Shown piece by piece: positions 7,547 to 64,000 of a stretch of DNA of 64,000 nucleotides (the first letter of the stretch is position 1; each line of letters opens with the position of its first letter). The stretch spans positions 1 to 64,000 of the IMG/VR virus record IMGVR_UViG_3300032116_000159; one strand, written 5' to 3'. The stretch is from a virus. Under the pieces are notes generated by a model that had not been told where the DNA came from, did not search any database, and saw only the letters and a list, made by a program, of their open reading frames with translations. The translations under genes were made by a program, and so were the position numbers.

Positions 7547-9172
7547 TTAGATAGTATTCAAACCTTCAACAAAGATCTTACCGTAGAATTCAGGACGCAG
7601 CATTTCTTTTGCGTATCTTGTCATCACGGCTTTTCTTGGTGTAAAGTTATCAGGATCGTGTACAAGCGGTGTCATAATCAATGGAATGTATGGAGCGTAT
7701 ACGGCACCTGTTTCCAAATATTGTGTTCCTCTGTATCCCATCAAAATTACATTTTCTTTCATGTAAGGTGATTTGTATACAGTGAAACGATTATTGATTG
7801 TACCGATCTTGTGAGATCCCATACTAAACTGATTTCTGCTTCCGTCTGTGTCGGCTGCATAACCAGGAATCGATTCGAGTACAGTTGCTACAGTTGGTGA
7901 GGTAACCAAGAAGTTTGCACCACCTCTAAACGTTAATCTATCGATTTCGTTAGATACTGCTTGGATCTTAGTTCCCAATGTTTGGAACCATGTACCTTGA
8001 TTGTATGCAGCAGCGTTTGCAGCTGTTTGACTGAATGCGTTTGTATCAGGATTATATTCGTATCCTAAACGTGCTGACCAATATTTAGTCGTTTGAGCGT
8101 TCAATCTCAACATGTCTAAGATTTCCAAATCGATTTCTCTCGCAACATATTCACCAAGGATACCGGTTAATTCTGCTTCTGCATCGATGTTCTGGTATGC
8201 GTTGATGTCCTGTGCGAATTCAGGTGTCCACATTGCCTTCAGTTTACGTGTCTTTGCAGTTAACGCTTGGCTATGGAACTCAAGGTTCAATTCAGGAATA
8301 TCTAATGGATCTTGACCAGTTTTGTTCTCTTCAAAATCACCTCTTGTAACATCAGTAGGTTGCTTCTGATAGTAAACTGCCAAGTTAGCGATCTGTGTTG
8401 CTGAACCAGAAATTACAAATGTAATTTGAGTTTTTGCAGCATTGATCGAAGTGAACTGATTGAACTGCGTGTCGATTCCTGTACCACTAACCGTAAATGC
8501 ACGTACACCTTCCAAATCAGGATTTGTCAAAGAACTAACTGCGATAGTCAATTTTTTGATTTTTGCAGAGTCAACAACTGAACTTGAGAATTCGCTATCG
8601 AAGTTTACATCTGATGACAGATTACAACTTGAGAATACGCCTTTAGTTGCAGTTGGCGTACCAGATGAACTTGCGATAAGTCCAGTCTTACTGTAATCGT
8701 TGATTGAATATGCGAATCGTCCTGCACCATAAAGACCACCGGTTGCAACTGCTTCACCCTTAGATGCATCAGTTACACCCCAAATCGAGTCTTCTTGTGA
8801 ATCTTTACCAGAACCACTTGCGAAACCTGGTTGTCCAGTACCATACTTGAATTCCAACCAGAACACGAGTCCTGAAGGTAAATTCATCGGCTGTACCGAA
8901 ACAAAGTCCTTTGCAGTGATTTCACCGAAAATTCTTCTAATCAACGGTAACGCAACACCAGCCCATTCTTCTGAACCGGCAGCTGTTCCTGTTCTGTTTG
9001 CTTCAACTACCAATTGCTTCGCTTGGTTTTCTAAGAGTTGAGCAACATTTCCTTTGTCAAGATCTGACAAGTTTTCTAATAGCCCTGTTTTTTCCCACTT
9101 TGAGGTCAGTGCTACTACATCTTTACGCCTTTGAACGTGTGCGTTCTTTGGCAATAAATTATCAATATTCAT
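7547..9172 (-). CDS. Major capsid protein (T4 gp23-like)
   Basis: 541 residues, near the T4 gp23 length. Residues about 70-110 (EEWAGVALPLIRRIFGEI then VSVQPMNLPSGLVFWLEFKY) match the conserved gp23 region around LVRRVF and VGVQPM-P-G-IF. The N-terminal ~60 residues are helical and charged and contain candidate prohead-protease sites of the (L/I)xE type (for example QLLE), in line with gp23 maturation. It follows the scaffold gene by 22 nt, has an AAAGGA ribosome site and is followed by a strong terminator, as expected for the most abundant protein. Head shell, expanded after proteolysis. Confidence 0.95.
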   Translation of the reverse strand: MNIDNLLPKNAHVQRRKDVVALTSKWEKTGLLENLSDLDKGNVAQLLENQAKQLVVEANRTGTAAGSEEWAGVALPLIRRIFGEITAKDFVSVQPMNLPSGLVFWLEFKYGTGQPGFASGSGKDSQEDSIWGVTDASKGEAVATGGLYGAGRFAYSINDYSKTGLIASSSGTPTATKGVFSSCNLSSDVNFDSEFSSSVVDSAKIKKLTIAVSSLTNPDLEGVRAFTVSGTGIDTQFNQFTSINAAKTQITFVISGSATQIANLAVYYQKQPTDVTRGDFEENKTGQDPLDIPELNLEFHSQALTAKTRKLKAMWTPEFAQDINAYQNIDAEAELTGILGEYVAREIDLEILDMLRLNAQTTKYWSARLGYEYNPDTNAFSQTAANAAAYNQGTWFQTLGTKIQAVSNEIDRLTFRGGANFLVTSPTVATVLESIPGYAADTDGSRNQFSMGSHKIGTINNRFTVYKSPYMKENVILMGYRGTQYLETGAVYAPYIPLIMTPLVHDPDNFTPRKAVMTRYAKEMLRPEFYGKIFVEGLNTI

Positions 9173-9194: not shown

Positions 9195-10112
9195 TTACTT
9201 AATACCTGCTAATTCTTTCCATCTTGAAGCGAACGCATACTGATTATTCGGTGTGTTCTTAATAGAACGCATAGGCTTCGATGCAGATTCTACAATTTGG
9301 TTTTTCGTATTTGTTTTAGCCTGTCTGTCCAAACTTTCACAAATCGTAGCATATACCAATTTAACTTCTCTGATCGTTTGTGCCCTGTCGAATGCCTCAA
9401 GTATTTTCACTTGCTTCTGTGCAGATAGTTTATTAGCACTTGTAATCTTAGTCAAAAACAACAATTTAGAATTCAAAAGATTTACTTCGTTAATTGCGTT
9501 TTTCTGTGTTGTAATTGCACGGTAAGCCTCTTTAAGTTGGGCTTTCGCTTCAGATAACTCTCTGCGTAAACGACGGTTTTCAGACTGCATTTCTTTTTCT
9601 GTTTCCATATCGTCTTCTTCGTACTTCATATCATCTTCCGCGTCACCTTCGAGTTCCGCAAGAATCTCATCGAGTCCACTCATTAAGTCGTCTTCATCAT
9701 CTGGTTCTTCTTCGTCATCTTCCGGTTCTTCCATGTCCATACTATCGCCGCCTTCTTCACCTTCAAGTTCTGCAAGAATTTCCGCAAGGTCCATTTCGTC
9801 ATCTGCTGGTTCTTCTTCGTCATCCATTGCAGGCACCATGTCGTCTTCTTCTGCGAGTCCGTCATAATCAGGATTCGCGTCGTCATACGTTTCATCTGAA
9901 TACTCTTCGCCCATTGTGTCTTCAGTATCGGTTGGCATTACGTCTTCTTCGTCATCCATGCCTTCTTCTTCTGAAAGTTTCTGAGTGATTAATTGTCTTA
10001 CCGTCGGTTCGAATGCTTCTTTCAGTCGACCGATTGCCGTTTGAACTGCGGTTTCTCTAACTGCTTTTGCATCAGCGATAGCCTCGTTCAAAAGATTTGA
10101 ATCTAATTTCAT
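9195..10112 (-). CDS. Prohead core scaffold protein (gp22-like)
   Basis: 305 residues with an extremely acidic middle (residues about 48-175, runs of Asp and Glu with Met), then a long coiled coil (about 178-215, ENRRLRRELSEAKAQLKEAY) and a basic C-terminal part. This composition and the position between the protease and the capsid gene are typical of T4 gp22-type core proteins, which template the prohead and are then degraded by gp21. The start MKLDSNLLNEAI resembles the leader of the putative internal head proteins. AAGGA ribosome site. Confidence 0.8.
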   Translation of the reverse strand: MKLDSNLLNEAIADAKAVRETAVQTAIGRLKEAFEPTVRQLITQKLSEEEGMDDEEDVMPTDTEDTMGEEYSDETYDDANPDYDGLAEEDDMVPAMDDEEEPADDEMDLAEILAELEGEEGGDSMDMEEPEDDEEEPDDEDDLMSGLDEILAELEGDAEDDMKYEEDDMETEKEMQSENRRLRRELSEAKAQLKEAYRAITTQKNAINEVNLLNSKLLFLTKITSANKLSAQKQVKILEAFDRAQTIREVKLVYATICESLDRQAKTNTKNQIVESASKPMRSIKNTPNNQYAFASRWKELAGIK

Positions 10113-10834: not shown

Positions 10835-11329
10835 TTAGCATTTCCTTTTTTTCTTCGTTTCCGGTAGTGCAGTATATCCTACAGGATTTTGTTTGCCGAT
10901 TTCGTATTCTAAATATTCTGCGGCCGCACTTACATTATGTTTAGCATCGATTATTTTTGTTTGCCACCAGTGAGGAAAATCGACCGGTGACTGTAAATTC
11001 TTTACGAGTTTGCATAATTCGGCTGCGTCTTTTGCTATTGAATATAAATCCGATTTTATCATTTCGAGTTCATCTTCATCATGACTTAAATCTAACGCTT
11101 CCTTTTTAACCGGCAAACCTTTATGTTTTGTTTTAGCGAATTTTTCTAATTCCTTTTCTGACATTTTGTACATTTCTTTAGATGCACCTTTTAATGAAGA
11201 TACTGGAATGTCGCCTCTTTTTGCTGCCAATGCTGCACCGGCTGCTTGTTGTTGGTCTTGTGATACCGATTTTTCGTTTATAACTTCGCTAACTGCTTGT
11301 CGTATATATGTTCGGATTTTATTTTGCAC
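10835..11329 (-). CDS. Putative internal head protein, DUF3008-like motif
   Basis: 164 residues, GTG start at 11329 with a GAGG ribosome site 8 nt before. It begins MQNKIRTYIRQAVSEVINE, a leader ending (I)NE like the capsid-targeting leaders in this window. Residues about 30-70 hold AAGAALAAKRG then SLKGASKEMYKMSEKELEKF and TKHKGLP, a motif I associate with the DUF3008 family. The second half (about 75-150, FPHWWQTKI and AAEYLEYEIG) resembles regions of other T4-like marine phage virion proteins. Likely packaged in, or part of, the head. Confidence 0.65.
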   Translation of the reverse strand: MQNKIRTYIRQAVSEVINEKSVSQDQQQAAGAALAAKRGDIPVSSLKGASKEMYKMSEKELEKFAKTKHKGLPVKKEALDLSHDEDELEMIKSDLYSIAKDAAELCKLVKNLQSPVDFPHWWQTKIIDAKHNVSAAAEYLEYEIGKQNPVGYTALPETKKKRKC

Positions 11330-11331
11330 TG

Positions 11332-11709
11332 TTATACCTCGTAGTATTTTCCTAATACAGTACCGATATCGTCATACGCAGATTCGAATCTTTGTTGACT
11401 CTGACGAAGTTCACCTGCTGTTTTCTGTAATATTTTATAGGCTTCTTTTAACTGTTTCATGTGTCGTTGTACAGTTACACCATCGAACCAATTTTCGGTT
11501 TCTTGCAGTGTCATGTTTTCAGCAGTATCTACCAGCCAACCGATCTCTTCAACCTTTTGACGAATTTCTTCTGATTTCACAAACGACTCTTTATAGTTAC
11601 CGTATTGTCTACATGCTTCTAAAAATGCACGCTTTTCTGATTTCGTGTATCGCAGATTATCGCCAGTTGCATTTTCTTTAAGGAATTTTTTTAAAGTATT
11701 CGATTTCAT
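11332..11709 (-). CDS. Putative internal head protein, helical
   Basis: 125 residues, starting MKSNTLKKFLKE, which fits a capsid-targeting leader with a gp21-type FLKE site at residue 12. The rest is helical and partly coiled coil (residues about 70-115, rich in Gln, Arg and Lys). It is 2 nt from the next gene and 11 nt after the prohead protease gene. Packaging into the head is inferred from the leader and the neighbours; no family recognised. Confidence 0.6.
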   Translation of the reverse strand: MKSNTLKKFLKENATGDNLRYTKSEKRAFLEACRQYGNYKESFVKSEEIRQKVEEIGWLVDTAENMTLQETENWFDGVTVQRHMKQLKEAYKILQKTAGELRQSQQRFESAYDDIGTVLGKYYEV

Positions 11710-11720
11710 ATATACCTATT

Positions 11721-12329
11721 TTATTTTAAACAACATACACCAGAAAGTTCGCATATAATATCGCGTATGAGAACATTAGCGATATCGTAACTTTCAGTAT
11801 TCGGATTTGCTGATTCGTTTACACGTTGCATGAACGCGCCTTGAGTTGAAGGATTTGAAACGAAATCCCATCCGACAAGTGTAAAATCTGGTTGCACCTC
11901 TACGGTAGTTTCATCTAATTGACGCACACTTCCCATACCTCTTGAACTAATACCCAACGTAACACCGGCTTTGAATAGTTCTTTAAGTATATTACCGGAC
12001 GGTGTATTCAGAATCTGAACTTTACCGTATACGTCATCGCCTTTCCATTCCACATTCAGAATATTATGGGATACATTGCGTAAATTCACTACACTCGATT
12101 CAGGATGATCTAATTCCCCCAACGCCCTCTTCTGTGCAATTTCTACTTTACGGTATCGTTCGATTTCACGTTCGAGTATCGGTTTCGGATATATTCTCCC
12201 ATTTTGGTTTTTTACACCAGCACGTTGCAATACACCTTCGACAATAAAAGAATTGTCGCCGTACTTCGATTCGGTTATCGAGTCACGTGTATAAATGAAA
12301 TTGCCGTATTCTACCAATAAGTTTTTCAT
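11721..12329 (-). CDS. Prohead protease (T4 gp21-like)
   Basis: 202 residues, close to T4 gp21 (212). Residues 27-60 hold FIVEGVLQRAGVKNQNGRIY, a typical gp21 start; catalytic His is seen in GELDHP (His75) and catalytic Ser in GISSRG (Ser128 or 129), the family's active-site motifs. The enzyme cuts scaffold, capsid and internal proteins after (L/I)xE during head maturation. It lies between portal-side genes and the scaffold gene, as in T4. The C-terminus ends CELSGVCCLK with three Cys, which is uncommon. Confidence 0.92.
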   Translation of the reverse strand: MKNLLVEYGNFIYTRDSITESKYGDNSFIVEGVLQRAGVKNQNGRIYPKPILEREIERYRKVEIAQKRALGELDHPESSVVNLRNVSHNILNVEWKGDDVYGKVQILNTPSGNILKELFKAGVTLGISSRGMGSVRQLDETTVEVQPDFTLVGWDFVSNPSTQGAFMQRVNESANPNTESYDIANVLIRDIICELSGVCCLK

Positions 12330-14317: not shown

Positions 14318-16168
14318 TTAAACTAATTCATCTAACAATGAATTTTCATCAAGCATCTTAATATTATCGATATCTGAATCGTTTTTTTTCGTTTCATTGA
14401 GTGCAACAACTTTTTTACCGAACGATTTCGCTATAAGTTCCAAATCTTTACCAGCATTTAAAAACCCGTTTGCGAATTCCTTTCTGCCTGACGGGTCTCT
14501 ACCATATAACGGATCTTTATCACGTTCAAACGATCCGTGCTTTAAAGGTCTACCAGTGTTTTCTTCACGTTTGTCTTTCTTATAGAGTTTTGTAATTCGG
14601 TCACCTGCTTCAGATTCCTCTGCATGTTTAATACCCATACTCGATGCGATTTGCATAGATACGATATCGTGAGGTGTACCAAATGATCTTCCAGTTTTCG
14701 CCGGGTCATTACCTTCAGATTTAATCTGCTCTTCTCTGAATTCACGTTTAAGGTCTTCGATCATCAGTTCTTGCTGCTCTTCCCATTCCTCATGTGTCAT
14801 ATTGAATAGATTCTCGTAAACCCATTTACGGCTGAATAATTTGTTTTCTTTTATGTTCTGAATCAGATTCAGTTTCTCATTTAACAGATCGACTTTCTGA
14901 CGTTCATACAACAAAGATGGTGTCGACAATTCCAAAGAGAAATCTACAAGATCTTCATCACGGAAACCTTGCATGTATAAATGTATGTGACCAATTTTCT
15001 GCAATTCAGATACTACAATTTTTTGAATTCTTTCTATGAATCTTGCAAATTTTATATCTTCGGCCGCAAGTGTTCCTTTACCGTCGACACCTTCATCATA
15101 ACCTAAATACGCTTTCGGTATTTTCAAATACGCCATTTGTTTTTTCTGCAAATATTCGATATCCTCTAAACTACCTTCATTTGTCAAACCAGGTAACGAT
15201 TCGATTCCAGTACCACTATCAGCACCTCTTGTCGGTAAATAGAAATCCTCAAGCATATTCATGAGGTTGAAGCGTAAATTGTAGTCGCCAGTTTGAGGAT
15301 CGATGTATGGTACCTTTTTCATTGTATTCGCAACGTCTTCCATGTATCCGTCGATTGCTTCAGGTGGTAAATTTCCGACATCGATTTTAAATATACGTCT
15401 CTCAGGTGCTCTCATAATACGATGTATCAACATCGCATCTTCCATCATGGTCAATTGTTTCCAAACTTTTCTTGCGCCTTCTAATAACGATTTACCATAC
15501 GGTAAAAAGTTTGTATCGGTCAGTACACGAAAATGTGCGATCTCATGATAATCGAAAACGCTTCTTGCTTTCTGATAATTAAACATCGTCTCACCCTCAT
15601 AAATATATTGTGTGAGATTTTGATTATCACCTGCATAGTCATCACGTTTAATCAGTGATGGGTGAATCGGCACTGCATCCACAATACCTACTGAAGGTAC
15701 TGTATTCAAGTATAAGAATAAATCGCCATATTTACATAGCGATCTTGTCCAATGCCACAGATTAAAATCGACATTTAAAATATCGTAATATAGGTTATTA
15801 AGTATTTTTTTCTTTTCTGCATCATCGCACCGTATTGTCAATAGGTTACCATGTGCGTCTTTTACAGTAGCCTCATCTGCATATATGTCTAATGCAGATG
15901 CTAAGATCGGATCCGATTCCATACTTTCATAATCAAGATACATAGCCATTCTTGCCGCATCGACCTGTTCGGTCTGTGAAGAATAACCGGTACCGTATTG
16001 GCTATCACCAAATCTTGACGATTTTATACCACCGTATTTCGGCGTTATATTATTACCGATCGACTGTAATTTATCATAATCGATTACACGGAGTCGATCA
16101 CCCGGTGTTTTTTTTATGATTATTTTTTGACTAAATAGTCGCTGTATTACTTTTCCTATTGCTGACAT
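14318..16168 (-). CDS. Portal vertex protein (T4 gp20-like)
   Basis: 616 residues (T4 gp20: 524). The N-terminal part contains DYESMESDPILASALDIYAD (about 95-115), a typical gp20 segment; further conserved regions are FRVLTDTNFLPYGKSLLEGA and WKQLTMMEDAMLIHRIMRAP (about 215-255), ERRIFKIDVG, and the stretch with KIPKAYLGYDEGVDGKGTLA near residue 350. The C-terminal ~120 residues are acidic and charged, an extension beyond T4. The portal forms the dodecameric DNA gate and packaging motor dock. It lies 12 nt after the terminase gene. Confidence 0.95.
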   Translation of the reverse strand: MSAIGKVIQRLFSQKIIIKKTPGDRLRVIDYDKLQSIGNNITPKYGGIKSSRFGDSQYGTGYSSQTEQVDAARMAMYLDYESMESDPILASALDIYADEATVKDAHGNLLTIRCDDAEKKKILNNLYYDILNVDFNLWHWTRSLCKYGDLFLYLNTVPSVGIVDAVPIHPSLIKRDDYAGDNQNLTQYIYEGETMFNYQKARSVFDYHEIAHFRVLTDTNFLPYGKSLLEGARKVWKQLTMMEDAMLIHRIMRAPERRIFKIDVGNLPPEAIDGYMEDVANTMKKVPYIDPQTGDYNLRFNLMNMLEDFYLPTRGADSGTGIESLPGLTNEGSLEDIEYLQKKQMAYLKIPKAYLGYDEGVDGKGTLAAEDIKFARFIERIQKIVVSELQKIGHIHLYMQGFRDEDLVDFSLELSTPSLLYERQKVDLLNEKLNLIQNIKENKLFSRKWVYENLFNMTHEEWEEQQELMIEDLKREFREEQIKSEGNDPAKTGRSFGTPHDIVSMQIASSMGIKHAEESEAGDRITKLYKKDKREENTGRPLKHGSFERDKDPLYGRDPSGRKEFANGFLNAGKDLELIAKSFGKKVVALNETKKNDSDIDNIKMLDENSLLDELV

Positions 16169-16180
16169 ATTTCAATTTTT

Positions 16181-17776
16181 TTATAGTAACCACCGTGTCG
16201 ATATAGTATTACCTTTTCCGTCATCCATTGTCCATTTTGAATTATCCCCATTCGCATTCGGTGTATACACTCGTTTGTGCATATGTTGTAATGTTTTTCT
16301 GGTCATATCTAAACCAATCTCACGTAGTTTCAGTGCAGTATCACGAACAAATAACGCAATACCTGTCGATAATACTGCATCGTCTTTACGGCCTGGTCTT
16401 GCCTGTGCTTTACCGTTTAGCCATACAAAAACAAGCAATTGTGATATTAGCCTCTTCGACCTTACTATAATTAGTTTTTCATTGAAATATCGCTCGATTT
16501 TTGATACGATCATTGGACGATTTGCGGTAGTTGTTGTGAAACCAGGAACCATATCCTTTTTCGATTTCAAATCGTATCCTTTCGAAATATGTTTTATCGG
16601 ATCGACATATACATCCTGTCTGTAACTATAAAAAATATTCGAATAATTCATGTCGATCGCTTCTTGTACAGTATCATAACCGATATTTTTATTTTCAATT
16701 ACAAGCATTGCCGTGTTGTATTCGGTTGCGATCGATACCGCCATTCTACCTAAATCTCGTGGCGATACTTTTCCAATATACTCGGCAACTTGTTCCATCG
16801 ATTCGACATCAAAAACTTCAATTGCAGAATCGTCGGCACCATCGCCACGAGCAACGTCTACCGATACAACATAAGATCGTGTATAATCAGGATATTTCCA
16901 TATCCAATAATCGCCATCGATCCCTCTGCGTTCTAATGGATCGGTAACCATGTTTTCGTTGTACCATTTTAAAACATCACCTTCAATAACCGAATGACCT
17001 GATGTCAAAAAGTCGCAGTCACATTCCTGTGCCGCCATTCTTTCACCTAAATGGAGAGTCTGTTGGTCACGCCATTTTTGATCTCGTTCAGGATGTAGAT
17101 CCCAATTAAGTTTTATCGGATTAAACGGATCTAAACCGTCTGGTGCTTTTTGTATTTCTGCATCGACCCATAATTGGTGAAATAAGTTGTCTACACCATT
17201 TGGAGTCGATAATAATATTGCATCTCCACCTGTAGCTAATGTCATCTGTGCCGATGCCCAAATACGATCGATGTTGTCAACAAATGCAGCCTCATCTATA
17301 ATCAATAGTGAAAGTGCTTCGGAACGTCCTGCTGTTGGTGAGGATGATACAGCTTTAATTGTTGAACCGTTTGCGAATGATAATTGTAGTTTATTATCAT
17401 CTACTACACGCGTTTTCATCCATGACGGCAAGTTCGTATTCATTACCTTTACTTTATGTACAAGGTTCTTTGCAACATCTTGTGTTGTTGCGATTACGAG
17501 TACTTTGTAGTTTTCACGGAAAAGCATATTCATTAAAGCATATGCAGCAACCAGTGTTGAAATTCCCATTTGACGGGACTTCAATATTATATTGAATTTA
17601 TGCGATATTATTTCTTCAAGGGCCCGTGTTTGAAACGGGAATAGTTGAAACGGAATTTTGCCCTGAATAGGGTGTTCGATCTTGCAGTATTTTTTTATCG
17701 CATAATTATAATCGACACTACATCGTGCAAGTTCTTGGGTTACAATATCACGTATGTTCGGTTGTTTTTCTGACAT
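16181..17776 (-). CDS. Terminase large subunit (T4 gp17-like)
   Basis: 531 residues. ATPase domain: Walker A SRQMGIS at 68-74 and Walker B LLIIDEA at 157-163; the coupling region follows (LSTPNG, 189-194). Nuclease domain: SVDVARGDGADDSA with Asp307, Glu361 in VIENKNIGYDT, and a late Asp pair in GRKDDAVLS, the RNase H-like metal site. It packages DNA into the prohead through the portal and cuts the concatemer. The next gene is the portal, as in T4. No typical small terminase was recognised with certainty; the 213-residue gene at 18473-19114 is a positional candidate. Confidence 0.95.
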   Translation of the reverse strand: MSEKQPNIRDIVTQELARCSVDYNYAIKKYCKIEHPIQGKIPFQLFPFQTRALEEIISHKFNIILKSRQMGISTLVAAYALMNMLFRENYKVLVIATTQDVAKNLVHKVKVMNTNLPSWMKTRVVDDNKLQLSFANGSTIKAVSSSPTAGRSEALSLLIIDEAAFVDNIDRIWASAQMTLATGGDAILLSTPNGVDNLFHQLWVDAEIQKAPDGLDPFNPIKLNWDLHPERDQKWRDQQTLHLGERMAAQECDCDFLTSGHSVIEGDVLKWYNENMVTDPLERRGIDGDYWIWKYPDYTRSYVVSVDVARGDGADDSAIEVFDVESMEQVAEYIGKVSPRDLGRMAVSIATEYNTAMLVIENKNIGYDTVQEAIDMNYSNIFYSYRQDVYVDPIKHISKGYDLKSKKDMVPGFTTTTANRPMIVSKIERYFNEKLIIVRSKRLISQLLVFVWLNGKAQARPGRKDDAVLSTGIALFVRDTALKLREIGLDMTRKTLQHMHKRVYTPNANGDNSKWTMDDGKGNTISTRWLL

Positions 17777-19129: not shown

Positions 19130-19441
19130 TTAGTCGTTTTTTGATGCGTCTTTTAATCCTTGGACCATTGCATTTATTTTACCTTTCGGTACACCTACTA
19201 AATCAGCAAACTTCACAATTGCTTCTGCCTGGTCACCGGTATTATTGAATTTCAATAGATTTTTCAATGAAGAGTTTTCAAGTTTTTCAAAAAATCTCTT
19301 GACTCTGATTTTTTTAAATTCCTTAGAAGTCTCAGTTTTTTCTTCATTAATCAATTCTGCAAGAGTTTGCTGCACCATTTTTTGTACAGCTAATCTTATC
19401 TGTTTTTCATGCAATGGGTGTTTCGGATTTCTTATGTTCAT
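19130..19441 (-). CDS. Small helical protein, possible head-targeting leader
   Basis: 103 residues starting MNIRNPKHPLHEKQIRLAVQ and reaching LAELINEEKTE; the ELINE end of the helix resembles the (L/I)xE processing sites of the leaders seen in this window, but the leader would be long (about 34 residues). The rest is basic and helical (RVKRFFEKLENSSLKNLLKF). ATATTTAT motif 21 nt upstream. Function unknown. Confidence 0.55.
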   Translation of the reverse strand: MNIRNPKHPLHEKQIRLAVQKMVQQTLAELINEEKTETSKEFKKIRVKRFFEKLENSSLKNLLKFNNTGDQAEAIVKFADLVGVPKGKINAMVQGLKDASKND

Positions 19442-30447: not shown

Positions 30448-30750
30448 TTAAGAGAAAAGTTCTTTCATACCTTTATAAAAAACAGGAAAATATTTTTGAT
30501 AATATTTATGTGCAGATGCTTTAATATGACTATCTCTATATCTGTCATAATCTGATTCTTCTTCTCTATAAAAATCGTTTGCAGTTTCAGAAGCATCAAA
30601 AACAGCAATTATAGAGGGCGGATCTTTAGGGTTACGTAAATCTTTATGCATTGAATTTAATAATACACCTTCATCAGATCCTCCCCAATCTTCCGTTAAC
30701 ATTTTTTTTGTATCTGCTTTAATAAGTGTTTTTAATGATGTTAATCTCAT
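30448..30750 (-). CDS. Putative internal head protein
   Basis: 100 residues, starting MRLTSLKTLIKADTKKMLTE, a leader that ends in LTE like capsid-targeting leaders. The body has MHKDLRNPKDPPSIIAVFDA, a motif seen in T4-like marine phages, then an acidic helical part. Preceded by ATATTTAT (18 nt) and AAAGG. Function unknown; packaging is inferred from the leader. Confidence 0.6.
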   Translation of the reverse strand: MRLTSLKTLIKADTKKMLTEDWGGSDEGVLLNSMHKDLRNPKDPPSIIAVFDASETANDFYREEESDYDRYRDSHIKASAHKYYQKYFPVFYKGMKELFS

Positions 30751-30793: not shown

Positions 30794-31267
30794 TTATTTG
30801 AATTTTGCAAAAGTATACCGTACGCCGGCAAGTTGCCGTTTATAGATTTCAATGTTCGGAATAGCCTTTTTTATGTACGCTATATATAAATTGTTTCGTT
30901 TTTCGCCCATGTCACCACCTTTTTGATAAGGTGAGTATTTTATACCTAAGACATCGGAATCATCTGAATCTGAACCTGTGTTTAAACCTTCGAGTGCTGA
31001 TTTTATAATATCCACAATTGTTGCCATTACTGAAAACATTTCTCCCCGATTTGTAACATTATATGATTCATCTGCTTCAAAATCAACTTTTATGAATTTC
31101 AAATCATTTTTCAAGGTAACCCGATAATTCAAACCGCTATCTGTCACAAAACTATAACCTTGTTTTGCTCCTATTTTATTCAAATCACCGGAAATTTCTT
31201 GTTTCCATTTGTATTTAGCGCCGGAGGCTTCACCTATTTCTTTCAGTAGTTTTTTAAGTCGTATCAT
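30794..31267 (-). CDS. Putative internal head protein
   Basis: 157 residues from ATG 31267, which gives MIRLKKLLKEIGEASGAKYK, a short leader with a LLKE site. An upstream TTG at 31282 would overlap the previous gene and is less likely. The body is beta and helix mixed, with LYIAYIKKAIPNIEIYKRQL near the end, a motif found in other marine phages. Function unknown. Confidence 0.6.
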   Translation of the reverse strand: MIRLKKLLKEIGEASGAKYKWKQEISGDLNKIGAKQGYSFVTDSGLNYRVTLKNDLKFIKVDFEADESYNVTNRGEMFSVMATIVDIIKSALEGLNTGSDSDDSDVLGIKYSPYQKGGDMGEKRNNLYIAYIKKAIPNIEIYKRQLAGVRYTFAKFK

Positions 31268-47753: not shown

Positions 47754-48155
47754 TTAAGTACTCCGCATTTTATTCGAAGATGTACGTTCCATAACATCTA
47801 ATACACGTTTAAAATCTGTATTCTGTATTTTATTCATAACACGTGCTACTGGGTCATCCGCATTTGTAAAATTTTCATCTAAAATAGATTTGACATTATT
47901 TTCATCCTCTTCGAACGGTGTAATTTCTTGAAATATTTCAGATAGATACGAACTTTTACTGAATGGTGACCCTGACCCGTTTCCTTTTTTAGGTACTAAT
48001 TTCGTTTGTGGACTGATCGGAACTGATTTCGCATTTTCGTTTAGTAGATTTCGCAGTTCACTTTTAATTTCACGAATTTCGCTTAGGATTTTAGCATTTT
48101 CCCTTTTCATTTCAAGAATCGACTTCACAAGAGTCTTTAATTGTGATTCATTCAT
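47754..48155 (-). CDS. Hypothetical protein between gp5- and gp25-like genes
   Basis: 133 residues. N-terminal 45 residues are coiled coil (MNESQLKTLVKSILEMKREN), then a Ser/Pro/Lys-rich linker with PFSKSSYLSEIFQEITPFEE, then a charged tail. Recurring motif 20 nt upstream. It sits in the baseplate block, so a baseplate assembly role is likely but unproved. Confidence 0.6.
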   Translation of the reverse strand: MNESQLKTLVKSILEMKRENAKILSEIREIKSELRNLLNENAKSVPISPQTKLVPKKGNGSGSPFSKSSYLSEIFQEITPFEEDENNVKSILDENFTNADDPVARVMNKIQNTDFKRVLDVMERTSSNKMRST

Positions 48156-49660: not shown

Positions 49661-49954
49661 TTAGGATATATACATATTCAATTCGTAATTACGATTCGGT
49701 GTACCGAATACCTGAATGTGTAGTTGTTTTCTTTGAGGTTTTCCGTTTTTAGTCAATTCGATACTGAATCGATTTGTGTTACCAGGTGAAGGCTTTTTAG
49801 GACCTAAACCGACTTGCTTTGCGACTTGTTCTTCATCGTATTCGTAGCCTTCGTTTTTCGCATATTCTAAAGCAGTGTCAATAGCACTCGAGTACTGATT
49901 ATGGTATATTTGATAGTCAGATCTTTCAGACAATAGTTTTTTTAAACTTAACAT
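49661..49954 (-). CDS. Putative internal head protein
   Basis: 97 residues from ATG 49954, chosen over 50053 because it has an AAAAGGA ribosome site and starts MLSLKKLLSERSDYQIYHNQ, a leader with an LLSE site; the longer frame overlaps the sigma gene and does not start with such a leader. The end (TKNGKPQRKQLHIQVFGTPN) is a motif found in other marine phage proteins. Function unknown. Confidence 0.6.
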   Translation of the reverse strand: MLSLKKLLSERSDYQIYHNQYSSAIDTALEYAKNEGYEYDEEQVAKQVGLGPKKPSPGNTNRFSIELTKNGKPQRKQLHIQVFGTPNRNYELNMYIS

Positions 49955-58282: not shown

Positions 58283-58547
58283 CTGTTTCCTCTATTAGTA
58301 TTATGAGATCCGAATCGCCTTTAAGTATACGATGGTATACTTCTTTACCGATTTCAAGTTTTAGACCATCGGTTAAACTTATAGGCAGTTCGTCTTCGAA
58401 TTGAAACTTCCAATTACCGCTTTGAACGATTTCGACTGTGCGATTTTTATAATCACGGTGCCAAACCAATTCAGATTCGTTTAGATTATCCACCTTAAAT
58501 ATTCGTGTGAATCGATTCGACTCGTGCGGCGTATCTGTGTATACCAT
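58275..58547 (-). CDS. Small cupin-like protein
   Basis: 90 residues from ATG 58547, which forms TAATG with the stop of the gene upstream (a TTG at 58553 is less likely). The pattern SELVWHRDYKNRTVEIVQSG, WKFQFEDELPISL, VYHRILKGDSDLIILIEE resembles small cupin-like proteins found in many phages next to PhoH-type genes. Metal-binding His residues are partly present. Function unknown. Confidence 0.6.
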   Translation of the reverse strand: MVYTDTPHESNRFTRIFKVDNLNESELVWHRDYKNRTVEIVQSGNWKFQFEDELPISLTDGLKLEIGKEVYHRILKGDSDLIILIEETDD

Positions 58548-59116
58548 TACCAATAAGTGTTCATGTTATCGCCTAAACCTAATGTTTTAGCGTAACGCGG
58601 TAATCTACAAGACCAATAACCAGGGCTGGTTCTGTCTGTTTTATCTTTACAATTATGACGGTCTGCAAATGCTTTACGTCTCTCAGGATCTTTGAATTTA
58701 ACTGCTAAACTACCTCCACCATCTTTTGCACCGAAGGCTACTTTTCGTATGTTACCACTTGAAGGATCTTTTACAAACACATAAAACTTTTTCGATCCGC
58801 CACGTTTAGGTTTACCTAATTCAACTTCGCGTCCTTGGTATTCTGCCTCGTTTACAAATGGTAAATCTAATGGAACACGTTCACCATTGTATAATCCGAA
58901 TTCACCTAAATCGGTCTGCAACATATCGGTGTCGTTTTCATTATAATATTTACCAGATCGGCATAAAGTTTTTGCTTCGTTTATAACTTCAAAAAATTTA
59001 GCGCTACCATGACGAAATATATTTTTTGAGACCGGTATATTGTTTTCTATATGATAACGAAGTTCCTTTGAAATTGCAGTCTCCGTTTCGAGTAGTAAAC
59101 TTTTTATGCTAATCAT
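58547..59116 (-). CDS. Putative internal head protein with conserved YWSCR domain
   Basis: 189 residues. Starts MISIKSLLLETETAISKELR, a leader with LLLE at residues 7-10. The C-terminal half (KKFYVFVKDPSSGNIRKVAF, FKDPERRKAFADRHNC, SPGYWSCRLPRYAKTL) is a domain found widely in T4-like phages (I associate it with DUF5754). The His/Cys pattern of RHNC-KDKTDR-SPGYWSC suggests metal binding. Located right upstream of the cupin and PhoH genes. Likely packaged or virion-linked; function unknown. Confidence 0.65.
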   Translation of the reverse strand: MISIKSLLLETETAISKELRYHIENNIPVSKNIFRHGSAKFFEVINEAKTLCRSGKYYNENDTDMLQTDLGEFGLYNGERVPLDLPFVNEAEYQGREVELGKPKRGGSKKFYVFVKDPSSGNIRKVAFGAKDGGGSLAVKFKDPERRKAFADRHNCKDKTDRTSPGYWSCRLPRYAKTLGLGDNMNTYW

Positions 59117-60028: not shown

Positions 60029-60331
60029 ACTTTTAGATAATTCAGATGGATAAACTGCAACAACTACCAGTTCACCTTCCTTGAAATTTTTATAATTAGA
60101 ATTGCGTATACGTTCACATAATACACGCAGTTGAACTGCCTTTCCTCCAAGTATTGTATTTAGATTCTTTTCGAAAAATCTCACACGTGATTTGAATTCA
60201 TACGGATTAGAGACCTTTTCGGTATACGCACATGTCACATCGGATGTCAGATTCATAAGAGGGTCTGTTACGTATCCGATGTGACGATTTGTATTTTTTT
60301 CAACAACTTTAAAACCTATGCGCATTGCCAT
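60026..60331 (-). CDS. Hypothetical protein
   Basis: 101 residues from ATG 60331, which lies directly behind the stop of the gene upstream (TAATATG); a TTG at 60346 would overlap it. Starts MAMRIGFKVVEKNTNRHIGY, beta-rich, with VRFFEKNLNTILGGKAVQLR central. No family recognised. Confidence 0.6.
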   Translation of the reverse strand: MAMRIGFKVVEKNTNRHIGYVTDPLMNLTSDVTCAYTEKVSNPYEFKSRVRFFEKNLNTILGGKAVQLRVLCERIRNSNYKNFKEGELVVVAVYPSELSKS

Positions 60332-60332
60332 A

Positions 60333-60659
60333 TTAAAAATCTTCAAATGTCACATCCGCATTGATGCCTCCGTGTTTTAAAACAACTTGTTCGATAAGTT
60401 TCATTGGTATATAACCGTATACAGTTCCTGTAGGATCTGCAGGATTGTCTGCATACGTGATTATCAGATCTTCTGGTTCTGAAGGGAACCCGATTTCCAT
60501 CGCTGAAAATTGTGGACCGGTTTTTCTTGGTATCGAGTATGCCATTTCGTTGCCTTGTACCGACATTTTAAAACCGTCCATGCAAACGATTTTAGGTCGG
60601 TGTCGTACAGTACCGCAACGAATCATAAATTCGGTTAGTGTTATAGGTGTCGGTTCCAT
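60333..60659 (-). CDS. Hypothetical protein with conserved phage motif
   Basis: 108 residues. CGTVRHRPKIVCMDGFKMSV, SAMEIGFPSEPEDLIITYAD and TGTVYGYIPMKLIEQVVLKH form a motif set seen in many myophages of varied hosts. Two Cys (Cys15, Cys26) near the start. Function unknown; early-region position suggests a host-takeover or metabolic role. Confidence 0.65.
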   Translation of the reverse strand: MEPTPITLTEFMIRCGTVRHRPKIVCMDGFKMSVQGNEMAYSIPRKTGPQFSAMEIGFPSEPEDLIITYADNPADPTGTVYGYIPMKLIEQVVLKHGGINADVTFEDF

Positions 60660-60670
60660 ATATTATCGAT

Positions 60671-60886
60671 TTATTTTGATGATTCGGATTCGACTGTCGG
60701 CAATGTTCTTCCGGTAAGTTCTTCGTAATCGTCAGGATTTACAGTTCTTACTACTTTGGCGACTCGTTTCAATTCCTTCTCAGAAGGCAGTTTAACATCA
60801 CCGATATAGTTGTTAATCAGTTCATCGAAATCGTTCGATGCGTCGTCGGTTAAATGGTCTAAATAAAACTCTTTCATACGTCCCAT
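60671..60886 (-). CDS. Hypothetical acidic protein
   Basis: 71 residues, starting MGRMKEFYLDHLTDDASNDF, acidic and helical; ends LTGRTLPTVESESSK. No family recognised. It lies 11 nt before the gene at 60333. Confidence 0.55.
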   Translation of the reverse strand: MGRMKEFYLDHLTDDASNDFDELINNYIGDVKLPSEKELKRVAKVVRTVNPDDYEELTGRTLPTVESESSK

Positions 60887-60973
60887 AATTCAATGTTTAA
60901 ATGGTTAATTAATTATATTGTAAAAATAGAAGTCTTTTCTGAGATATCCAAATTATTTGGAATCTTTTTTTAA

Positions 60974-61162
60974 TTATTTTTCGATTAATAATTTAAGTTC
61001 ATGTGCGGCCTGACGTATACTTGAATTCAAGTAACCGACCTCGTATGCGATTTGTGAATGGACATCGTCAGAATATGCACGAGAGGATTCCAGTGCGGTT
61101 TTCTCTATCGATTCAATGAATCCGATAATTTCTACTAATCTGTTTTCTGTTTCTCTATTCAT
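60974..61162 (-). CDS. Small helical protein
   Basis: 62 residues from ATG 61162 (MNRETENRLVEIIGFIESIE), chosen over an earlier frame start at 61237 because the longer form overlaps the gene upstream by 73 nt. Helical, with AYEVGYLNSSIRQAAHELKL at the end. No family recognised. Confidence 0.5.
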   Translation of the reverse strand: MNRETENRLVEIIGFIESIEKTALESSRAYSDDVHSQIAYEVGYLNSSIRQAAHELKLLIEK

Positions 61163-61164
61163 GA

Positions 61165-61362
61165 TTATCGTTTTACAGGTAAACCTAATTGCGCAGCTGC
61201 GTAATTTATATGTTTTTGCGTTGTCACCGACCACCAACCTAATTGATGTAATGCAACACCTGGTTCGACACGTGCAACTAATGTATCATACGATTTAACG
61301 TATTCGAAGCCGTCAAGTCCGTAGGCCAATTGAAGATTCATTTTGTACTTTGGAAATTTCAT
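61165..61362 (-). CDS. Small protein with DUF8033-like motif
   Basis: 65 residues. SYDTLVARVEPGVALHQLGW followed by WSVTTQKHINYAAAQLGLPV resembles a small domain, found in phages and plasmids, that I associate with DUF8033 (pattern S-T-KHINY-A). Function unknown. The sequence before its ATG is a copy of that before ATG 61644 (see repeats). Confidence 0.55.
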   Translation of the reverse strand: MKFPKYKMNLQLAYGLDGFEYVKSYDTLVARVEPGVALHQLGWWSVTTQKHINYAAAQLGLPVKR

Positions 61363-61364
61363 GT

Positions 61365-61414
61365 TTTAATTATTTAAGTGTGATTAATTGAAAATATAAC
61401 TTGTAACATCGGCT
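61365..61414 (-). repeat. Duplicated intergenic segment, copy B
   Basis: Shares GCCGATGTTACAAGTTA and AATAATTAA-type flank with 61645-61693. The same segment in copy A encodes the C-terminal TADVTSY of 61662-61862. Here it follows the stop of 61417-61644 in frame, so it is a non-coding relic of that end. Confidence 0.75.
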
Positions 61415-61416
61415 GT

Positions 61417-61644
61417 TTAGTCTTTGATATGATAGCTATATTGCCATCCGCAATCATCATCGAAGTCGGAATACTCTTCTACATTTGCATTGTGTCCAAG
61501 TATCTGTTTCAGTTTTCCGATACTGATTTGTTGCCAGTATCCGAATCTAAAATACATGTGAGGATCGGTACCCCACGTCAGATCGATATCGAATTCACCG
61601 AACACTTTTTCGATCTCTTTTAATTTTTCAATATAAAGTCTCAT
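61417..61644 (-). CDS. Small acidic hypothetical protein
   Basis: 75 residues, starting MRLYIEKLKEIEKVFGEFDI, acidic end EEYSDFDDDCGWQYSYHIKD. The codons after its TAA continue as TADVTSYIFN and a second stop, matching the end of the gene upstream (TADVTSYNFK). So this gene was probably longer, or the 3' flank was duplicated. No family recognised. Confidence 0.55.
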   Translation of the reverse strand: MRLYIEKLKEIEKVFGEFDIDLTWGTDPHMYFRFGYWQQISIGKLKQILGHNANVEEYSDFDDDCGWQYSYHIKD

Positions 61645-61693
61645 GTTAATTATTTAAGTGATTATTTAAAATTGTAACTTGTAACATCGGCGG
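61645..61693 (-). repeat. Duplicated intergenic segment, copy A
   Basis: Covers the last codons of 61662-61862 and the leader of 61417-61644; similar to copy B at 61365-61414 over about 49 bp with a few changes and short gaps. Confidence 0.75.
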
Positions 61694-61862
61694 TTAATTG
61701 ACGGAATGTTTTAGGTTGCATGATTCTTTGCAACGAGGTTGCTGTAACATATTCTTGACCGTTAAACTCGATAATACCGACCCATTCGATTGATTTAACA
61801 AGGCGATATTTTCTCATCGACTTCGCCCAATTGATGACTTCCGTTCTTTTTAATAACTGCAT
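61662..61862 (-). CDS. Small basic hypothetical protein, first gene behind host-type promoter
   Basis: 66 residues, starting MQLLKRTEVINWAKSMRKYR, basic N-terminus then beta-rich; ends TADVTSYNFK. The host-type promoter at 61886-61916 lies 24 nt upstream, so it is probably one of the first genes expressed. A 9-bp inverted repeat (61861-61869 and 61884-61892) overlaps both the -7 box and the ATG and may be an operator or a coincidence. Function unknown. Confidence 0.6.
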   Translation of the reverse strand: MQLLKRTEVINWAKSMRKYRLVKSIEWVGIIEFNGQEYVTATSLQRIMQPKTFRQLTADVTSYNFK

Positions 61863-61885
61863 ATTTGTTGTTTTTGATTACATAA

Positions 61886-61916
61886 CAAATATAGGGCGTT
61901 ACGGCTTACGATGCAA
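61886..61916 (-). promoter_or_regulatory. Bacteroidetes-type promoter
   Basis: Minus strand: TTG inside AAAAGGTTGCA, 20 nt, then TATATTTG, a perfect -7 box. The 11-bp string around the -33 box is shared with 53743-53773. Expected start near 61880. Confidence 0.65.
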
Positions 61917-61963
61917 CCTTTTCCGACAAAATGTTCGATTGAAGATTCTGAGAAATCCAAATA

Positions 61964-62404
61964 TTATTTTGTGGGGTTGTCACTGTCGATATACTTCGAC
62001 CATACATCTTGTTTGACTCGACGTCGTGTTCGGCGCTTCGGTTTAGGCAGTTCAGTTTCGAGTTCATCGAGTAGTGTACTGACTGCAAGTTCTGATTCGA
62101 TTTCATCTAAACGACTCAGTACACGCATCGCATAATGGCAGTCTTCGTACCTTTCTGCAGCGACAAGATGTGCGATATTTTTTTCGATTGTGGTACGATA
62201 CTCTTTCGGGTCGATTATAATTTCGAGTGATGCCGCTATATCTTCGACATCGATTTGAAAACCCGGTTCATAAGACGGATCGTTGTGGTGTTCGATCGCA
62301 ACAGCAATTTCATCGATTATGTAACGGGAAAACTCAGGTGCTTCCGGTCCATGTATCATATCACGTAATTGCTGTTGCGTTTCGAGTCGTATACGTCTTT
62401 GCAT
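61964..62404 (-). CDS. Hypothetical protein with UVR-like helix pair
   Basis: 146 residues, starting MQRRIRLETQQQLRDMIHGP. Residues about 95-120 (LVAAERYEDCHYAMRVLSRL) resemble the UVR helix-turn-helix of UvrB/UvrC; a basic stretch LPKPKRRTRRRVKQ follows. GC-rich codons compared with the rest of the window. DNA or protein binding is plausible; no function assigned. Confidence 0.55.
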   Translation of the reverse strand: MQRRIRLETQQQLRDMIHGPEAPEFSRYIIDEIAVAIEHHNDPSYEPGFQIDVEDIAASLEIIIDPKEYRTTIEKNIAHLVAAERYEDCHYAMRVLSRLDEIESELAVSTLLDELETELPKPKRRTRRRVKQDVWSKYIDSDNPTK

Positions 62405-62413
62405 AAAGAGAGA

Positions 62414-62695
62414 TTATTTCCAAACTGCGCTACCGTCACTTGTTACGTACTGTCCACGATTGTGGCGGCGTATTACACCTTTCATAGCGGCAGCGATTTG
62501 AGTTTCCATTTCATCACGGAAACGATTTAACTGGCGGTCATCCATTGTACGTACCGATGGGCCCATACCGCTCTGAAAAGAAAAATATTGGTCGACGATT
62601 TCCCGTGCCATTTTTTTAAGGTCAAGTACCTGTGCCTCTTCGAGTTCCTGACGGACCGTTTCCTTTATAATTCTGCGCAAATCTGAGTGTGTCAT
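62414..62695 (-). CDS. Putative internal head protein
   Basis: 93 residues. Starts MTHSDLRRIIKETVRQELEE, a leader ending in LEE. The rest is helical and charged with FSFQSGMGPSVRTMDDRQLN and a basic end. AAGGA ribosome site. GC-rich codon use. Function unknown. Confidence 0.6.
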   Translation of the reverse strand: MTHSDLRRIIKETVRQELEEAQVLDLKKMAREIVDQYFSFQSGMGPSVRTMDDRQLNRFRDEMETQIAAAMKGVIRRHNRGQYVTSDGSAVWK

Positions 62696-62703
62696 CGGTA
62701 TCC

Positions 62704-63021
62704 TTATTGCGGTTCGTATTCATCGAAACGTTTCTGCAATGCAGTACCGGCATCCTCACCGAATCGTATTGTGTACTGATCGAGTAGTTGTTTGAGAAAA
62801 CCGTCACGTTGCTTTGTGTACACGAGACGCTTCTTCGGATCCGATTCCGATTTCAGTCTTTGAGCAAGTGTGCGTAAAGACGAGAAAGAACGATCTTCCA
62901 ACGCCTTAGCCAGTGCCACGACGGCATCATTATACATATCACGTCGCAGTAAACGATCGGTTTCCGATTCTACACGTTTCGGGTCGACAACTACCGCTTC
63001 AAATAAATCACGTAATTTCAT
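62704..63021 (-). CDS. Putative internal head protein
   Basis: 105 residues. Starts MKLRDLFEAVVVDPKRVESE: MKLRDLFE matches the shape of the T4 capsid-targeting sequence (MKTYQEFIAE) more closely than any other here. Helical and charged after that. AAAAGGA ribosome site, GC-rich codons. Function unknown. Confidence 0.62.
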   Translation of the reverse strand: MKLRDLFEAVVVDPKRVESETDRLLRRDMYNDAVVALAKALEDRSFSSLRTLAQRLKSESDPKKRLVYTKQRDGFLKQLLDQYTIRFGEDAGTALQKRFDEYEPQ

Positions 63022-63040
63022 GGTGTTCCTTTTTTATCGA

Positions 63041-63319
63041 TTATCGGATTCGAACTTTATTTTTATCGACCAGATCATCGATGAACTTTTTCGAATCAGA
63101 TTTCGTGTCGTAGTTTTTAAGTTGATTTACAATTAAATCGAAGGCCTTCTTTCCTGAACTTCCTTTTGCTTGTGTTATAAGGAGTGTTCGCCCGCCGGGG
63201 AATTCAAGTGTTACTCTATGCATTTGCGGGTCGGAGGTATCTACTTTGTGACCTATGACCTCCGAAGATTCAGTTAAAGCCCGTCGGACTTCTTCTTTAA
63301 TGATTTGTTGCAATTTCAT
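63041..63319 (-). CDS. Putative internal head protein
   Basis: 92 residues. Starts MKLQQIIKEEVRRALTESSE, a leader ending in LTE. The body VTLEFPGGRTLLITQAKGSS is beta-like, then a helical end. GC-rich codons. It lies behind an intergenic hairpin region (63349-63417). Function unknown. Confidence 0.6.
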   Translation of the reverse strand: MKLQQIIKEEVRRALTESSEVIGHKVDTSDPQMHRVTLEFPGGRTLLITQAKGSSGKKAFDLIVNQLKNYDTKSDSKKFIDDLVDKNKVRIR

Positions 63320-63348
63320 GGTATCTCTTTTTATTCAGTTTCAAATTA

Positions 63349-63417
63349 GTTCGACGAAGTCGAACAGAGTCCGACCGCAATCGTTTCACCGTGTGTACCG
63401 TTCGGTACCTTCGGTAC
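63349..63417 (-). promoter_or_regulatory. Intergenic hairpins and GGTACCGAA repeats
   Basis: A perfect 7-bp hairpin GTTCGAC-TTC-GTCGAAC (63349-63365) and, at 63395-63417, three near-copies of GGTACCGAA that can fold as alternative 6-bp hairpins. No T-tract follows, so a terminator is unlikely. May be a stabiliser or processing site between two small genes. Confidence 0.45.
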
Positions 63418-63421
63418 GGCG

Positions 63422-63724
63422 TTAACCGCGTCGCGTCGCTTCGATTTCTTTACCGATCGCTTCGATCACTTTAGGAAACTCACGGGCCCATTCACCGTCT
63501 TTGACAATGCGGTATGCGTCTTCTAAAGCACGGTTAGCACGTTGGAGGTTCTGCTGCGACGGCGCCGCGTTTTTCTCTTCGACGAATACACGGAGTTCCC
63601 GTAGAAACTCCCACATTTGTTGATAGAACAAACCGAACCGTGGTCGGAGGTTTTCGCTTTCCCAACCGGCTGCTTCACGGAGTTGCCGACGGACTTGTTC
63701 CGGTGTTAAATGGTTTAGATTCAT
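63422..63724 (-). CDS. Putative internal head protein
   Basis: 100 residues. Starts MNLNHLTPEQVRRQLREAAG, a leader ending in LRE. The body is helical (LRELRVFVEEKNAAPSQQNL). AAAAAGG ribosome site, high-GC codons (many CGN Arg), unlike the AT-rich main block. Function unknown. Confidence 0.6.
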   Translation of the reverse strand: MNLNHLTPEQVRRQLREAAGWESENLRPRFGLFYQQMWEFLRELRVFVEEKNAAPSQQNLQRANRALEDAYRIVKDGEWAREFPKVIEAIGKEIEATRRG

Positions 63725-63774
63725 GTGTGCCTTTTTATTTCTTCACGGACTGTTTGTTTTAGTTTCATTGAGTT

Positions 63775-64000
63775 TCATTCCTGTGATTCAAATTTAGCAG
63801 TTACACCCAATGTATCAAATGTTGCAGACAAGTCCTTTTCCAATTCATCAAGTGTTTCAGGCTCTTCAGGAAAAAACCAATAACCCTTTCTTGCATTCCA
63901 ATAGGCAATGAGTTGATGATCTTCAATGATGTCTTTGATTGTATTGTTATCAATAGGTGTACGACCTTTCACAACCAGGCCAGGACCCGTAAAATCAGCA
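63775..64000 (-). CDS. Partial hypothetical protein, 5' end outside window
   Basis: The frame stays open to the right edge; a GTG at 63972 is the first start candidate inside the window, but the codons before it (ADFTGPGLVV) look coding, so the gene probably begins beyond 64000. The visible part is acidic, with NTIKDIIEDHQLIAYWNARK and YWFFPEEPETLDELEKDL. No family recognised. Confidence 0.55.
   Translation of the reverse strand, partial: ADFTGPGLVVKGRTPIDNNTIKDIIEDHQLIAYWNARKGYWFFPEEPETLDELEKDLSATFDTLGVTAKFESQE

Follow-up and report, generated by a model that had tools for sequence, protein, structure and literature searches.

The window analysed here comprises bases 1–64000 of a 66,612-base IMG/VR record. 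Its minus strand carries a T4-type head module, with genes for terminase, portal gp20, an S77 protease, a core protein, scaffold and gp23; the record combines a gp21-type prohead protease with gp23 and gp20 head genes (Table 1). The gp21-like protease proposed in an earlier, sequence-only reading is confirmed by profile search (Peptidase_S77, E 4e-32; 111.8 bits against PF03420, for which the curated cut-off is 27). Judged by capsid protein, two named records come nearest, Microcystis phage Mel-JY01 at 56% identity and Flavobacterium phage immuto at 52%, and an identical capsid protein is found on contigs from three other IMG/VR samples (L002–L004). The annotated head operon of Mel-JY01 includes, between protease and capsid protein, a gene resembling that for ribosomal protein S21 (RpsU; L082, 7185–7412). 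Candidate leader genes of the two named phages lie at 60276–60926 and 60923–61105 in Mel-JY01 and at 81525–81944, 102294–102869, 113188–113946 and 114006–116531 in immuto. Two S77 matches in other contigs (G034:C1:50206-50733 and G152:C1:12918-13247) each contain one in-frame TAG, for which recoding is possible. At the beginning of the window (1–4548, minus strand), a frame that stays open for at least 1516 aa runs off the record start. It has a raised G+C (0.48) and a strong AT skew, and starts MPNWKKVIVSGSDARLNSL, resembling the start of the gene at 4963–6228 (MATWKKVVVSGSAAQFSAL); it is perhaps fibre-related.

Ten small genes had been said to begin with leaders resembling the T4 capsid-targeting sequence (CTS), and translation of each start shows all ten N-termini to be present at the coordinates given, on the minus strand. 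Most of the starts are preceded by an aagg/agga-like site, a plausible ribosome-binding site. Three leaders were overlooked, one within the window (19130–19441) and two beyond its end (64569–64928 and 64957–65274). The 13 bodies share no mutual similarity (BLASTP, none at E <0.05); they are small (8–20 kDa) and mostly basic (pI >8 in 9/13). Several lie in a small-gene cluster near the window end, where G+C is 0.44 (62–64 kb) compared with about 0.36 across most of the window.

Table 1. Head genes and candidate leader genes of the record; an arrow marks the predicted leader end or maturation site
Feature	Position	Strand	Remarks
Major capsid protein, gp23-like	7547..9172	-	PF07068 E 6e-72; predicted maturation site QLVVE57↓A
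Prohead core/scaffold protein	9195..10112	-	MKLDSNLLNE↓AIADAKAV; sits between protease and capsid protein
Leader MQNKIRTYIRQAVSEVINE↓K + DUF3008 domain + C-terminal helical part	10835..11329	-	GTG start
Leader MKSNTLKKFLKE↓N, head-operon core protein	11332..11709	-	start 11709
Prohead protease, gp21-like (Peptidase_S77)	11721..12329	-	PF03420 E 3.8e-32; PHROG 207 head maturation protease 1.7e-57
Portal gp20	14318-16168	-	PF07230 E 2e-77
Terminase	16181-17776	-	
Leader MNIRNPKHPLHEKQIRLAVQKMVQQTLAELINE↓E	19130..19441	-	homologues MNEEKLRKAIRNEIRKALDE↓A, MNEENLRKAIRTEIRRTLKE↓A
Leader MRLTSLKTLIKADTKKMLTE↓D, ORFan body	30448..30750	-	translated start
Leader MIRLKKLLKE↓I, body of unknown type	30794..31267	-	passes strict rule
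Leader MLSLKKLLSE↓R, small alpha/beta body	49661..49954	-	11 homologous loci, several MIKLKxLLxE↓body
Leader MISIKSLLLE↓T, PHROG 7595 C-terminal domain	58547..59116	-	PHROG 7595 E 2.5e-11
Small-gene cluster with leader genes	60974..63972	-	extends to 65274 of record
Long-type leader MTHSDLRRIIKETVRQELEE↓A	62414..62695	-	PSSM 16.6; homologue MKNSTLKQIIKEEVRSALNE↓A in L281
Short leader MKLRDLFE↓A, ORFan basic body	62704..63021	-	passes strict rule
Long-type leader MKLQQIIKEEVRRALTE↓S, ORFan basic body	63041..63319	-	PSSM 25.6; null 0.04 hits/genome
Possible leader MNLNHLTPEQVRRQLRE↓A (weak)	63422..63724	-	translated start at 63724
Cluster leader MNEKALLLKKLIREEVQRQLRE↓E	64569-64928		past window end
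Cluster leader MQTKNVQRLKALIREEIRRQTGLLRE↓E	64957-65274		past window end

The boundary between leader and body can be followed in several of these genes. In 10835–11329 the DUF3008 domain (PF11450, E 3.8e-24) begins at residue 23, directly after the leader, and DUF3008 homologues that lack a leader start where this domain starts. A homologue of 30794–31267 in L588 begins MIRLKTILKE↓IGDAS, and L128 has a copy within a fusion, where the junction reads INE↓IGEAS. The AlphaFold model of 49661–49954 (mean pLDDT 81) has a folded body behind residues 1–12 with pLDDT <50; a fold search with this model gave no match at E <0.04 and no convincing TM-score. The 38 loci homologous to 58547–59116 have varied N-termini, for example MIRLKDLITE↓A; the predicted structure is poor (pTM 0.43), and a sequence search of the PDB with this family gave no match. 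The leader of 62704–63021 is almost that of an ADP-ribosyltransferase-like protein of a relative, G007 (MKLRDLIPE↓G). No homologue was found in a search with 30448–30750. The coding score of 63422–63724 is weak, codon score yields no gene call there, and a proline lies within the leader.

A leader rule was defined as a basic, amphipathic segment without P, G or C, with hydrophobic-x-E within 26 residues. Because it was framed after the window had been seen, and was then run unchanged on 24 other genomes, the evidential weight lies with the relatives and controls. Five of the ten genes (10835, 30794, 62414, 62704 and 63041) pass this strict rule, and the other five fail. Among the latter, 49661, 58547 and 11332 are backed by homologues with the same kind of leader; for 30448 and 63422 the support is their resemblance to the others. 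The failure of half of the ten, and the lack of a homologue for 30448 and 63422, would be expected if these were coincidental basic N-termini chosen by eye, with real targets only in the head operon. Such a coincidence is highly improbable: 7/77 genes of the record satisfy the rule, shuffled N-termini give 1.0, and none of 200 shuffles reaches seven; independent profile matches exist; and homologues of 30794, 49661, 58547 and 62414 in other phages retain both leader and body. Leader-like N-termini number 59/1691 in 13 S77-bearing relatives, against 15.6 expected, compared with 11/892 against 7.9, hence no excess, in seven S77-lacking phages (phi14:2, SPO1, crAss001, FelixO1, phi4:1, N4 and T5). 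The gene caller was simple and its choice of starts imperfect, alike in every genome. Counts in T4 and KVP40 are only modestly above chance under a rule that excludes the net-neutral T4 CTS. By these counts, leader occurrence is non-random.

The motif is not specific by itself, since it also matches the N-termini of terminases (LKEIIRDEYKRC) and of a protein from the baseplate operon (MKLDQLRKIIREEVRSAVKEELQEV). The latter protein, with its leader-like helix, is found at 47754–48155 of the window, in G004 (77027), in G007 (61818) and in many L25x–L32x loci. It occurs once per contig, with an actatttata-like sequence upstream that resembles a late promoter.

The ten leaders had been treated as a single family. 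At least two can be resolved, a short type (MIKLKxLLxE) and a long type (MK-x3-L-(K/R)-x-I-I-(K/R)-E-E-(I/V/L)-x3-L-x-E). The long pattern occurs in at least 120 IMG/VR stretches and its permutation in six, five of them inside one protein (ORF) family. In 257 Gb of bacterial and archaeal genomes there are 31 long-pattern matches, most of which are not N-terminal or lie on phage-like MAG contigs. Leader genes at loci L382, L387, L388, L383, L397 and L402, in MAGs labelled 'uncultured bacterium' or Candidatus Nitrosopelagicus, are probably on phage contigs binned with these organisms. Among the matches listed, the short pattern is at a true N-terminus in 82/92, versus 1/52 for its permutation. 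A long-core profile (a PSSM trained on IMG/VR genes) matches four genes of the record (62414, 63041, 64569 and 64957) versus 0.04 expected, and has no match in T4 or KVP40. A tblastn search of named phages with a 21-aa leader, too short a query, gave no match. The invariant M1 and E10 of alignment A1 are partly set by the search pattern and are not counted as evidence. The open-access literature searched yielded no paper on either leader family, which does not prove that there is none.

A search of other genomes of the group for the same leader on unrelated bodies had been suggested, and such cases were found: tens of bodies follow the same leader, with the boundary at LxE. The 129 pattern-bearing proteins cluster into 88 body families, and an overlapping set of 89 long-leader proteins forms 71 clusters. 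Conversely, members of one body family differ in their leader, which is of the short type in L548 and L583 and of the long type in L254 and L270. Sequence comparison thus establishes that the leaders are modular and swapped on homologous bodies. Tandem arrays occur: L326 has ten long-leader genes within about 8 kb and L319 has seven, and the paralogues in these arrays are conserved at positions 1–20, up to (L/I)(N/K)E, and divergent beyond. Neighbours in both arrays also share some sequence just upstream of the start and leader DNA. This could reflect duplication or recombination in hypervariable regions, through a shared 5'-UTR/start cassette that aids body swap or translation and encodes a functionless peptide. 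We give this very little likelihood, since codons differ among leader copies and the peptide is kept, the leader is conserved across distant genomes, and P3 and P1 are constrained. In L612, L599, L601, L573 and L128, domains that are single leader proteins elsewhere are fused, each after (V/L/I)xE↓(A/G/I), as if in a polyprotein. Internal (LIV)xE(AGS) sites are not enriched across leader proteins; the idea that leader proteins are generally polyproteins joined at LxE↓A was therefore rejected, and these junctions are anecdotal.

The leader end has the character of a cleavage site. An (L/I)xE lies within 14 residues past the long core in 65/85 leaders (mean 20.2, maximum 32, in 1000 shuffles), and the distance from core to LxE varies (3, 4, 6, 7 or 8) with the motif kept. 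In 67 distinct gp23 homologues, the maturation site placed by alignment to T4 has V/I/L at P3 in 67/67, E at P1 in 67/67 and A at P1' in 62/67, which suggests that these proteins are cut at (V/I/L)xE↓A. The scaffold N-terminus has LxE↓A in 47/59 homologues. The protease itself begins MKNLLVE↓Y, which is CTS-like, and its homologues begin MxKQLLV(E/D/N); that P1 is here often D, not E, counts against the capsid-targeting reading.

The protein encoded beside the protease (11332–11709) has a conserved body, with homologues in 85 loci, and an exchangeable leader. This is of the long type in L005 (MKSDTKNRLRKLIREEIRRQNKRRLFE↓S) and T4-CTS-like in L028 (MALYEKFLQE↓E), L571 is among several loci with MIKLKDLLNE↓E, and hydrophobic-x-E is present in the leader of 60/60 distinct homologues. 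The CTS-like leaders among head-operon homologues (MALYEKFLQE and MDYMKKFKQFLAE) are too short for a statement of homology. Since short, long and T4-CTS-like leaders all occur on this protein, the leader types of the scattered genes also serve a head-operon protein. As read from these alignments, such swapping is the strongest evidence for a capsid-targeting role. Most relatives have this gene next to the protease, and a conserved protein of the prohead core is therefore a likelier identity for the 11332–11709 product than an accessory effector.

Association with the S77 protease was counted on contigs of at least 15 kb. S77 is present in 13/32 long-leader contigs (7/7 at ≥95 kb) and 28/50 short-leader contigs, as against 1/46 random contigs (1/5 at ≥95 kb) and 5/28 contigs with the permuted short pattern. 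Fisher tests against random contigs give 1.6e-5 for the long and 1.4e-9 for the short type, and 1.7e-3 for short against permuted. Leader and protease therefore co-occur in these contigs; part of the association is shared ancestry, because leader genes occur in T4-like phages. Among 41 leader contigs without S77, gp20 portal is found only in G148 and G044, in both near the contig end, and the protease could lie off the fragment. Against the association, G160 (207 kb) has a leader gene and neither S77 nor gp20 was detected in it.

Terminase and the baseplate-operon protein start with similar helices, and the leader might accordingly be a general docking helix for virion or replisome assembly (tail, baseplate, terminase), uncleaved, with (L/I)xE as a mere helix end. 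We regard this as unlikely. LxE is kept while helix length varies, the link to S77 is tight, a head-operon protein bears the same leaders, and the leader end matches the gp23 site. Together with the many bodies, the S77 association, the swapped head-operon leaders and the gp23 site form partly independent lines that favour the original proposal of T4-like capsid-targeting leaders. It is likely, from these sequence patterns, that the leaders direct internal proteins to the capsid as removable propeptides, in the manner of the T4 CTS.

Some bodies resemble enzymes. In 90 representative leader proteins, four Pfam families match (a zeta-toxin/AAA_33 P-loop family and two weak ones among them), none of which is known as anti-defence. 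Eighteen PHROG families match, mostly unknown but including a deoxyribonucleotidase and polynucleotide kinases, and PADLOC gives two marginal hits. In the T4-like phage contig G006, 86125–86805 (L128:6128-6805) encodes an Fe/Mn superoxide dismutase (E 1e-33) with the leader MIRLRDIITE↓S and an enzyme domain from residue 15. The ADP-ribosyltransferase-like protein of G007 is encoded at 78198–78821 (L132:18201-18821; PF03496, E 8e-7), and a leader gene of immuto has a weak RegB-like match. Enzyme-like bodies in relatives are compatible with injected effectors. An anti-defence or takeover role, suggested by the T4 precedent, by the prevalence of ORFans among the bodies and by the few enzyme-like examples in relatives, is the least certain part of the reading.

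T4 Alt is an injected ADP-ribosyltransferase with a 7-residue propeptide; the leader-bearing G007 protein, in a relative and outside the window, is likened to it by type. T4 IPI–III block type IV restriction enzymes and are, to our knowledge, the main ones among the few injected internal proteins with an established function. The T4 CTS suffices to package foreign proteins and is removed by gp21, and internal proteins share the leader only (PMC9026906, PMC12373910). T4 internal proteins are basic and of about 8, 10 and 20 kDa (PMC9026906). The leader genes resemble IPI, IPII and IPIII in that an N-terminal propeptide of 10–19 residues, here a putative one, is common to otherwise unrelated small basic proteins (PMC9026906, PMC12373910), and in both systems the S77 protease is encoded beside scaffold and gp23. 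They differ in leader sequence (MIKLKxLLxE and MKxxxL+xII+EE..LxE) and in their larger repertoires and arrays, such as that of L326; moreover, packaging and injection are proven in T4, whereas here they are predicted. The prohead protease of SPN3US and phiKZ similarly cuts after x-x-E and removes N-terminal propeptides of internal proteins (PMC10052503), but these are other phages with mostly long propeptides, whereas here the protease is a Peptidase_S77 and the capsid protein a gp23. DarA and Hdf of phage P1 are also comparable, being head-associated proteins that counter host restriction (PMC12810830). No virion proteome was found for immuto, the closest cultured relative.

In the proposed mechanism, a basic helix of 8–33 residues would dock its protein on the prohead core (scaffold, 11332-type protein and protease). 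The S77 protease, activated in the closed prohead, would cut both the leader and gp23 behind an (L/I/V)xE, and the cut would free the mature bodies inside the head. These would be ejected with the DNA and act immediately in the host. We infer docking, cleavage, packaging and ejection by analogy with T4, and class the system with the T4 CTS in its mode of action, probably because the head machinery of both goes back to a common ancestor. The novelty is in the other leader sequences, larger arrays and other bodies, which would give uncultured T4-like phages their own and far larger repertoire of internal proteins. A broader proposal, to which we give an even chance, is that the two leader families serve aquatic T4-like phages generally as an interchangeable code for packaging. 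It would mark a large, fast-turning pool of effectors, packaged in the head and injected, that includes enzymes one would not expect in a virion (Fe/Mn superoxide dismutase in G006, the ADP-ribosyltransferase-like protein in G007 and zeta-toxin-like P-loop proteins), and the leader alone could be used to mine metagenomes.

If the leaders act like the T4 CTS, a short tag singles out, in aquatic phages that are abundant, tens of ORFan families without mutual relationship, which would be candidates for proteins of the first seconds of infection. The leaders would then point to new anti-defence proteins and virion-borne enzymes, and may supply further packaging tags for laboratory phage work.
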